From Bdellovibrio sp. KM01 (GTDB lineage: Bacteria > Bdellovibrionota > Bdellovibrionia > Bdellovibrionales > Bdellovibrionaceae): 64,000 nt of DNA. Below are positions 49,900 through 50,763 of this stretch, one piece after another. The DNA lies in NCBI RefSeq assembly GCF_013752535.1, contig NZ_CP058348.1, positions 2,170,001-2,234,000 of the forward strand, in the 5' to 3' direction. Numbering within the stretch: the stretch's first letter is position 1; every line of letters begins with the position of its first letter. The position numbers were made by a program, and so were the translations under genes. The notes beneath the pieces are model-generated. The model worked only from the letters and a program-made list of their open reading frames with translations. It did no database searches and was not told the origin of the DNA.

Positions 49900-50382
49900 T
49901 TAAGACTTCAGCGATCTGTTACGAACAGACAAAGTCAGCTCGTACGTCATAACCGGCTCTTGGCTTTTGCTTGGAACAATCGCATAGCCTTTCATTTTTC
50001 TTTCCAGACGTTCTGGATTTTTCTTAGCCTCTTCGATCAAAGATTTTACCGCTTCCACTTCATCACAGATAAAGTGAACATCGCCGTCCGCGCGCTTTCT
50101 ATACTGAGCCGTGAAATCCTTAAAAATGAAATCGATCTTTTGCTTGCTTTCGGCGATCACCTGCACCGCAGGGGCTGCGATGGAAAGTTCTGCCCCGACA
50201 CCCAAGGCTCCAAAGTACATCGAGTTCAGATGATTTTTGGTGCGATAGCCCAATGGAATTTTGATCACGAACTTCTTGTCCGTCATCTCGACCACTTTCG
50301 GGCCGATAAAAACCAACAGAGGAATTTTAAAAAGACCGTAGGCTGCTAAGAAGGCATTGAATTTGAAAATTTTTGTATTCAT
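49900..50382 (-). CDS. DUF4442 (hotdog-fold thioesterase-like) protein
   Basis: A 160-residue protein. Segments KIPLGYRTKNHLNSMYFGALGVGAELSIAAPA and IDFIFKDFTAQYRKRADGDVHF match DUF4442 of the hotdog superfamily, whose members resemble acyl-CoA thioesterases. NHLNSMYFGAL would include the active-site helix. A start at 50382 after AAAGGG fits; a longer frame from 50430 lacks support. It may clip acyl-CoA; activity inferred. Confidence 0.82.
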   Translation of the reverse strand: MNTKIFKFNAFLAAYGLFKIPLLVFIGPKVVEMTDKKFVIKIPLGYRTKNHLNSMYFGALGVGAELSIAAPAVQVIAESKQKIDFIFKDFTAQYRKRADGDVHFICDEVEAVKSLIEEAKKNPERLERKMKGYAIVPSKSQEPVMTYELTLSVRNRSLKS

Positions 50383-50445
50383 GCCCTTTATCTTAAGACT
50401 CGAGGCCAGAGAAGGGCCAGCACTTTTCACTGGGGACTGACTATT

Positions 50446-50474
50446 TTGACATTTTCCACTCAGAGGGAGACAAT
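50446..50474 (+). promoter_or_regulatory. Near-consensus sigma-70 promoter of a predicted small RNA
   Basis: -35 TTGACA (50446-50451, perfect) and -10 GACAAT (50469-50474) with a 17-base spacer, predicting a start near 50481. No open frame with a start site follows. Confidence 0.75.
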
Positions 50475-50480
50475 ATCTTT

Positions 50481-50622
50481 AGACAGACAGCTCCCATGGG
50501 AAGCGGATCCCTCAGTTCTCATTCCCTCTGAACACACTTCCCCTTTACGGAGCTGATCTCATAGACCCCCGATTCAAGTTCGCTCAAGGAAGAACTTTTG
50601 CAACCGGGGGCTTCCTTTTTCT
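50481..50622 (+). ncRNA. Predicted structured small RNA, about 140 nt
   Basis: Starts after the promoter and ends at a terminator. Nested stems: CAGCTCC (50488-50494)/GGAGCTG (50549-50555), GGGAAG (50498-50503)/CTTCCC (50537-50542) and GTTC (50515-50518)/GAAC (50530-50533). The terminator pairs CCCCCG (50566-50571)/CGGGGG (50605-50610) and AAGTTC/GAACTT, then TTTTT. Unpaired parts hold TCCCTC twice, complementary to ribosome-binding sites. It does not match 6S, SRP, tmRNA or RNase P RNA by eye. No family recognised. Confidence 0.7.
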
Positions 50623-50639: not shown

Positions 50640-50763
50640 GCCCCGAGTGAGAGGTACTTGCAAATATCGACACGCCATCCGGGCTCACCGTCGCCGCCTT
50701 TGGCGGTTCGCGCATCCATGCGCCGACGGAGGTCGACTTTTGCAAGTACCTCTCCCTCGGGGC
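50640..50763. repeat. 124-bp intergenic palindrome with 31-bp arms
   Basis: Bases 50641-50671 and 50732-50762 are complementary at 28 of 31 positions, plus one further G-C pair outside; the shared core is GAGAGGTACTTGCAAA. Inside are CCGCC-TTT-GGCGG and GCGCAT-CC-ATGCGC hairpins followed by CGACGGAGG. Located between the small RNA and the DUF1634 gene; no gene in it. Confidence 0.82.

Follow-up and report, generated by a model that had tools for sequence, protein, structure and literature searches.

We identified a putative small RNA (sRNA) gene at positions 50446-50622, on the forward strand of the window (the whole 64,000-nucleotide stretch of Bdellovibrio DNA analyzed here), and comparison across the genus makes it very likely that the element is a real, conserved RNA gene. 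Its product would probably act in trans, as an Hfq-independent sRNA that masks Shine-Dalgarno (SD) sequences through a C-rich loop. Post-transcriptional control in Bdellovibrio, a genus without detectable Hfq, is nearly unexplored, and an sRNA that is compact and conserved, has an evident seed loop and sits at a known locus offers a concrete object for the study of riboregulation in an Hfq-less predator. The element lies between a DUF4442 protein gene and a DUF1634/TauE gene pair, all three of which are on the reverse strand.

The divergent DUF4442 gene (49900-50382, reverse strand; its start, MNTK, lies near 50382) served as a syntenic anchor, and the genus was surveyed by reading the sequence upstream of this gene in all 24 Bdellovibrio genomes. 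A full copy was found at the same place, divergent from the DUF4442 gene, in 14 of the 24 (G000, G012, G022, G011, G010, G005, G020, G018, G014, G003, G023, G006, G002 and G007). Four further genomes carried a shortened C-loop hairpin (G009, G019, G001 (CCCCUC loop) and G008, the weakest case), while remnants or nothing were seen in G021, G016, G017, G013, G015 and G004. There is one copy per genome. Since it is decayed or absent in about 10 genomes, the element is not essential to the genus. By BLAST, it was matched in 4 of the 39 other genomes searched, and covariance models built from two sub-groups returned nothing convincing beyond the genus; weak model matches in other genera (G090, G084, G091 and G057) were not at the DUF4442 locus, had an unlike architecture, and were set aside as chance.

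The predicted transcription unit opens with a promoter at 50446-50474, composed of a -35 TTGACA (50446-50451), a 17-base spacer and a -10 GACAAT (50469-50474). Of the 14 full copies, 13 retain near-consensus hexamers and the 17-base spacing. Placing the start by the -10 element and the end by the U-run gives a predicted transcript of ~140 nt (50481-50622), which closes with a terminator hairpin and U-rich tail (50563-50622; hairpin proper 50563-50612). This hairpin is built from CCCCCG/CGGGGG and an inner AAGUUC/GAACUU stem, with a loop containing AAGGAA; its 10-nt loop and internal mismatches probably explain why a pattern scanner for terminators missed it. No open reading frame (ORF) of at least 40 aa lies within the element, except for ORFs whose overlap is confined to its 3’ end, and an 11-codon ATG frame (from 50496) is lost in the closest relative, where the ATG has become ACG. 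An earlier note, made from the letters of this DNA alone, had described a TTGACA-17-GACAAT promoter, a long terminator hairpin with a U run and the lack of a reading frame, and all of these readings held.

Between promoter and terminator, the 5’ part of the predicted RNA (domain 1) folds as a hairpin of two stems, P1 and P2. The 5’ strand of P1, AGACAGCUCC (50485-50494), pairs with GGAGCUG-A-UCU (50549-50559) to form the 7-bp closing stem that had been noted before, CAGCUCC/GGAGCUG, extended by AGA/UCU across one bulged A. P2 pairs GGGAAG (50498-50503) with CUUCCC (50537-50542). Of the two inner stems proposed earlier, P2 is therefore the one that is present, while the second, UCAG/CUGA, is weak and not conserved; what had been called a branched stem is more accurately a single long, irregular hairpin whose terminal loop is large, followed by the separate terminator hairpin.

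In all 14 full copies, domain 1 folded better than shuffled sequences (z = -1.9 to -5.4). Covariation was counted inside each of two groups separately, because MAFFT does not bring their stems into register with each other. Both sides had changed, with pairing kept, in 7 of 16 pairs of the window clade and in 4 of 10 pairs of the other group; 0 of 500 shuffles reached this level, although this control can be inflated by the relatedness of the sequences. As a further control, slid pairing partners scored worse. Both sides of P1 change in relatives. In P2, the sequence is replaced while the helix is kept: GGGAAG/CUUCCC in the window corresponds to UGAAGAC/GUCUUCA in G022, GAAUAAGC/GCUUAUUC in G011 and GAUGAAAG/CUUUCAUC in G010. 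Such replacement of a whole helix would be difficult to account for if pairing were not under selection, and the stems, whose covariance among Bdellovibrio genomes the earlier note had proposed as a check, are conserved well beyond this strain.

P2 encloses a large loop of ~33 nt (50504-50536), predicted to be unpaired, which holds two UCCCUC segments and the motif GUUCUCAUUCCCUC (50515-50528) and is the candidate seed. The two segments (50508-50513 and 50523-50528) had previously been assigned to unpaired regions, in agreement with their mean unpaired probabilities of 0.62 and 0.82, and the CCCUC site of the main loop was predicted to be unpaired at 0.66-1.0 in 14 of 14 full copies. The loop is the best-conserved part of the element: the motif GUUCUCA(N)UUCCCUC(C) recurs in most copies, in many of them preceded on the 5’ side by another UCCC(U) segment, and in G022 only AUUCCCUC is retained. 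A conserved, unpaired C-rich/UCCC loop characterizes the anti-SD class of sRNAs, and the folding models place such a loop here.

In the mechanism we propose, a sigma-70-type promoter would set the transcript start near 50481, the 5’ domain would fold as the P1/P2 hairpin and present the loop UCCCUC ... GUUCUCAUUCCCUC, and the 3’ hairpin and U-run would terminate transcription. The exposed CU-rich loop may then pair with GAGG(GAAU)-type SD regions of several mRNAs and block ribosome binding without Hfq, with repression as the expected outcome. We hold this anti-SD mode of action with moderate confidence.

We weighed whether the element could instead be a cis-acting 5’ leader, resembling an attenuator or riboswitch, of a small membrane-protein gene, surviving as a relic in the window clade. 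A gene for a membrane protein of 66-70 aa lies downstream in 15 of the 24 Bdellovibrio genomes (for example L102:1059-1271; MEQAPPKTKFLDRWTPRVFREAKQ...); the protein had no Pfam match. Its start codon directly follows the second hairpin in 14 of these 15 (14 of all 24), and the 3’ strand of the hairpin, AAGGGG, lies 8-14 nt upstream of that start codon and can serve as the gene’s SD sequence, both of which would suit a leader. However, the gene appears to have a promoter of its own: a promoter-like pair, TTGACC-~16-TTAAAG/TATAAA, is located inside the 5’ strand of the hairpin in 14 of the 15 ORF-bearing genomes (CTGACC in G016) and is absent from 9 of the 9 without it. Nor does domain 1 follow the gene as a leader always upstream of, and co-transcribed with, its gene would: eight genomes that lack the ORF have an intact domain 1, and in several ORF-bearing genomes it is missing or decayed. 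The window clade has lost both the membrane-protein gene and TTGACC, and keeps the hairpin as a terminator; G005 and G020 have lost the second hairpin together with the gene. Because domain 1 in these two genomes runs straight into a U-run of its own, we regard it as an autonomous unit and not simply the leader of the membrane-protein gene, and find a leader unlikely. The earlier proposal of an independently transcribed, structured non-coding RNA is thus favored by the genus-wide conservation of promoter, stems and loop, and the conserved promoter and terminator hairpin point to a transcription unit that, throughout the genus, does not depend on the downstream ORF. The arrangement is modular, in that the terminator hairpin of the sRNA also serves, in some lineages, as the next gene’s promoter and leader. 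The SD sequence of the latter would be sequestered in transcripts that read through from the sRNA promoter and free in those that start at its own promoter.

We also considered that, instead of pairing with mRNA, the RNA could act by binding a protein, either CsrA at the AAGGA loop of the terminator or another RNA-binding protein at the C-rich loop. CsrA is encoded in 24 of 24 genomes, and most second hairpins still have a GGA in their loop. CsrB-type sponges carry many GGA sites, whereas each copy of this RNA has a single site, in the loop of the terminator hairpin, which led us to reject a sponge of the CsrB/CsrC type. Moreover, the second hairpin is absent from G005 and G020 while the C-rich loop is kept, and the loop that is conserved is C-rich, not GGA. 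Action through a protein is, in our estimate, about as unlikely as a leader. An Hfq-dependent sRNA was rejected, as Hfq (PF17209) was found in 0 of 24 Bdellovibrio genomes by a search that recovered the control in E. coli and four others.

Taken alone, neither promoter nor fold sets the element apart from functionless intergenic sequence in which a promoter-like site and a terminator fold occur by accident: promoter matches were at chance level (4 sites found in 4 kb, 3.8 expected), and the z-score of the window element was only -2.1. The significance of the element derives instead from comparison, since promoter, stems and loop are conserved in 14 of the 24 genomes. The loop is preserved amid a fast-changing intergenic region, its stems show compensatory changes, and the promoter is maintained; we therefore consider an accidental origin very unlikely. 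A diverged housekeeping RNA (6S, SRP, RNase P or tmRNA) would fit a single-copy, structured RNA with a fixed locus and its own promoter, but is extremely improbable given that, as the earlier note had supposed, none of the four was matched in Rfam even at relaxed thresholds, that the element is missing or decayed in so many genomes, and that its domain of 70-86 nt, which has a single terminal loop, is unlike 6S.

To return to the anti-SD sRNA that we favor, complements of the loop were only slightly more frequent genome-wide than in a reversed-pattern control (63 vs 42 sites with at most 3 mismatches), as were exact matches to an SD+ATG pattern (11 vs 6 sites). In its own genome, exact GAGGGAAU-ATG occurs at five real gene starts, which we take, from reading the sequences and not from a profile search, to be those of two genes for secreted serine proteases and of surA-like, flgG-like and nuoE-like genes. 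For flgG, surA and nuoE, conservation of the GAGGGAAU site did not extend beyond G000, G012 and, in two of the three cases, G022. Among the matches listed, no 13-base complement of the loop recurred at one gene across the genus, and a search by loop complement, covering the own genome as well as the genus, did not yield a conserved target. As to the earlier suggestion that the loop may pair with GAGGGA-type ribosome-binding sites, the loop itself is the best-conserved part and is predicted to be unpaired in nearly all relatives, but a conserved target for it was not found. A more ambitious version, in which the twin UCCCUC loop acts on many SDs as a genus-wide, Hfq-independent global regulator of translation that helps the attack/growth switch, appears to us improbable. 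A candidate target at 1438770 of the own genome was discarded, as it lies inside an ORF and not at a start. Kissing of the C-rich loop with the AAGGAG loop of the second hairpin could involve 6 bp in the group that carries the ORF. The window clade allows only 4 bp and G005 and G020 none at all, so kissing was rejected as a general mechanism. Separately, csrA was observed close to flgG in closed Bdellovibrio genomes.

Two described sRNAs offer precedents, by analogy, for C-rich or CU-rich loops that repress near start sites without Hfq. The Xanthomonas sRNA sX13 (~115 nt) is strongly structured and Hfq-independent, has C-rich loops, occupies a fixed locus within one bacterial family and represses mRNAs that carry G-rich motifs close to their start sites (PMC3771888). 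The Bdellovibrio RNA, whose function is predicted, is like it in strong structure, C-rich loop sequence and fixed locus; however, sX13 has three stem-loops with CCCC/CCCCC, as opposed to one large loop UCCCUC...UUCCCUC here, and the two have neither sequence relation nor shared synteny. LhrC of Listeria (111-114 nt) carries redundant unpaired UCCC motifs that pair with the SD region, Hfq being dispensable, and further sRNAs with UCCC motifs in low-GC Gram-positives include RsaE, RNAIII, SprD and FsrA (PMC4132741). Redundant UCCC motifs in (predicted) unpaired regions are common to LhrC and the Bdellovibrio RNA, but LhrC has five gene copies versus one here, and phylum, structure and sequence all differ. 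Within the genus, one RNA-seq study described eight attack-phase sRNAs of HD100 (APsRNA1-7 and merRNA) without giving targets; it covered attack-phase-induced RNAs only, and growth-phase RNAs were not assigned (PMC3627812). These are the sole sRNAs of the genus reported in the literature searched, and like the RNA described here they are intergenic and mostly structured. Their HD100 coordinates are 0.50-0.61, 1.07, 1.34 and 3.42 Mb (PMC3627812), whereas the orthologous position of our element, taken from closed relatives with similar numbering, is ~2.0-2.2 Mb, and it is apparently absent from their list. Rfam gave no relevant match at gathering scores and only two chance miRNA matches when relaxed to E values up to 5, and we class the element as a putative new sRNA family whose functional kind is already known.

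The flanks of the element showed two further features. Directly past the sRNA terminator, and not part of the sRNA, is a 32-base inverted repeat (50640-50763, forward strand; arms 50640-50671 and 50732-50763), with arms that are 91% complementary and a 60-base spacer. It occupies the place of the small membrane-protein gene of relatives; in G012, the nearest relative, the sequence at this place differs, and no further copy of the arm sequence was found in the window. On the other side, upstream of the DUF4442 start (50382-50440), a CCAGAGA-GGGCCAGCACTTTT block is strongly conserved genus-wide and is perhaps the promoter or operator of the DUF4442 gene.
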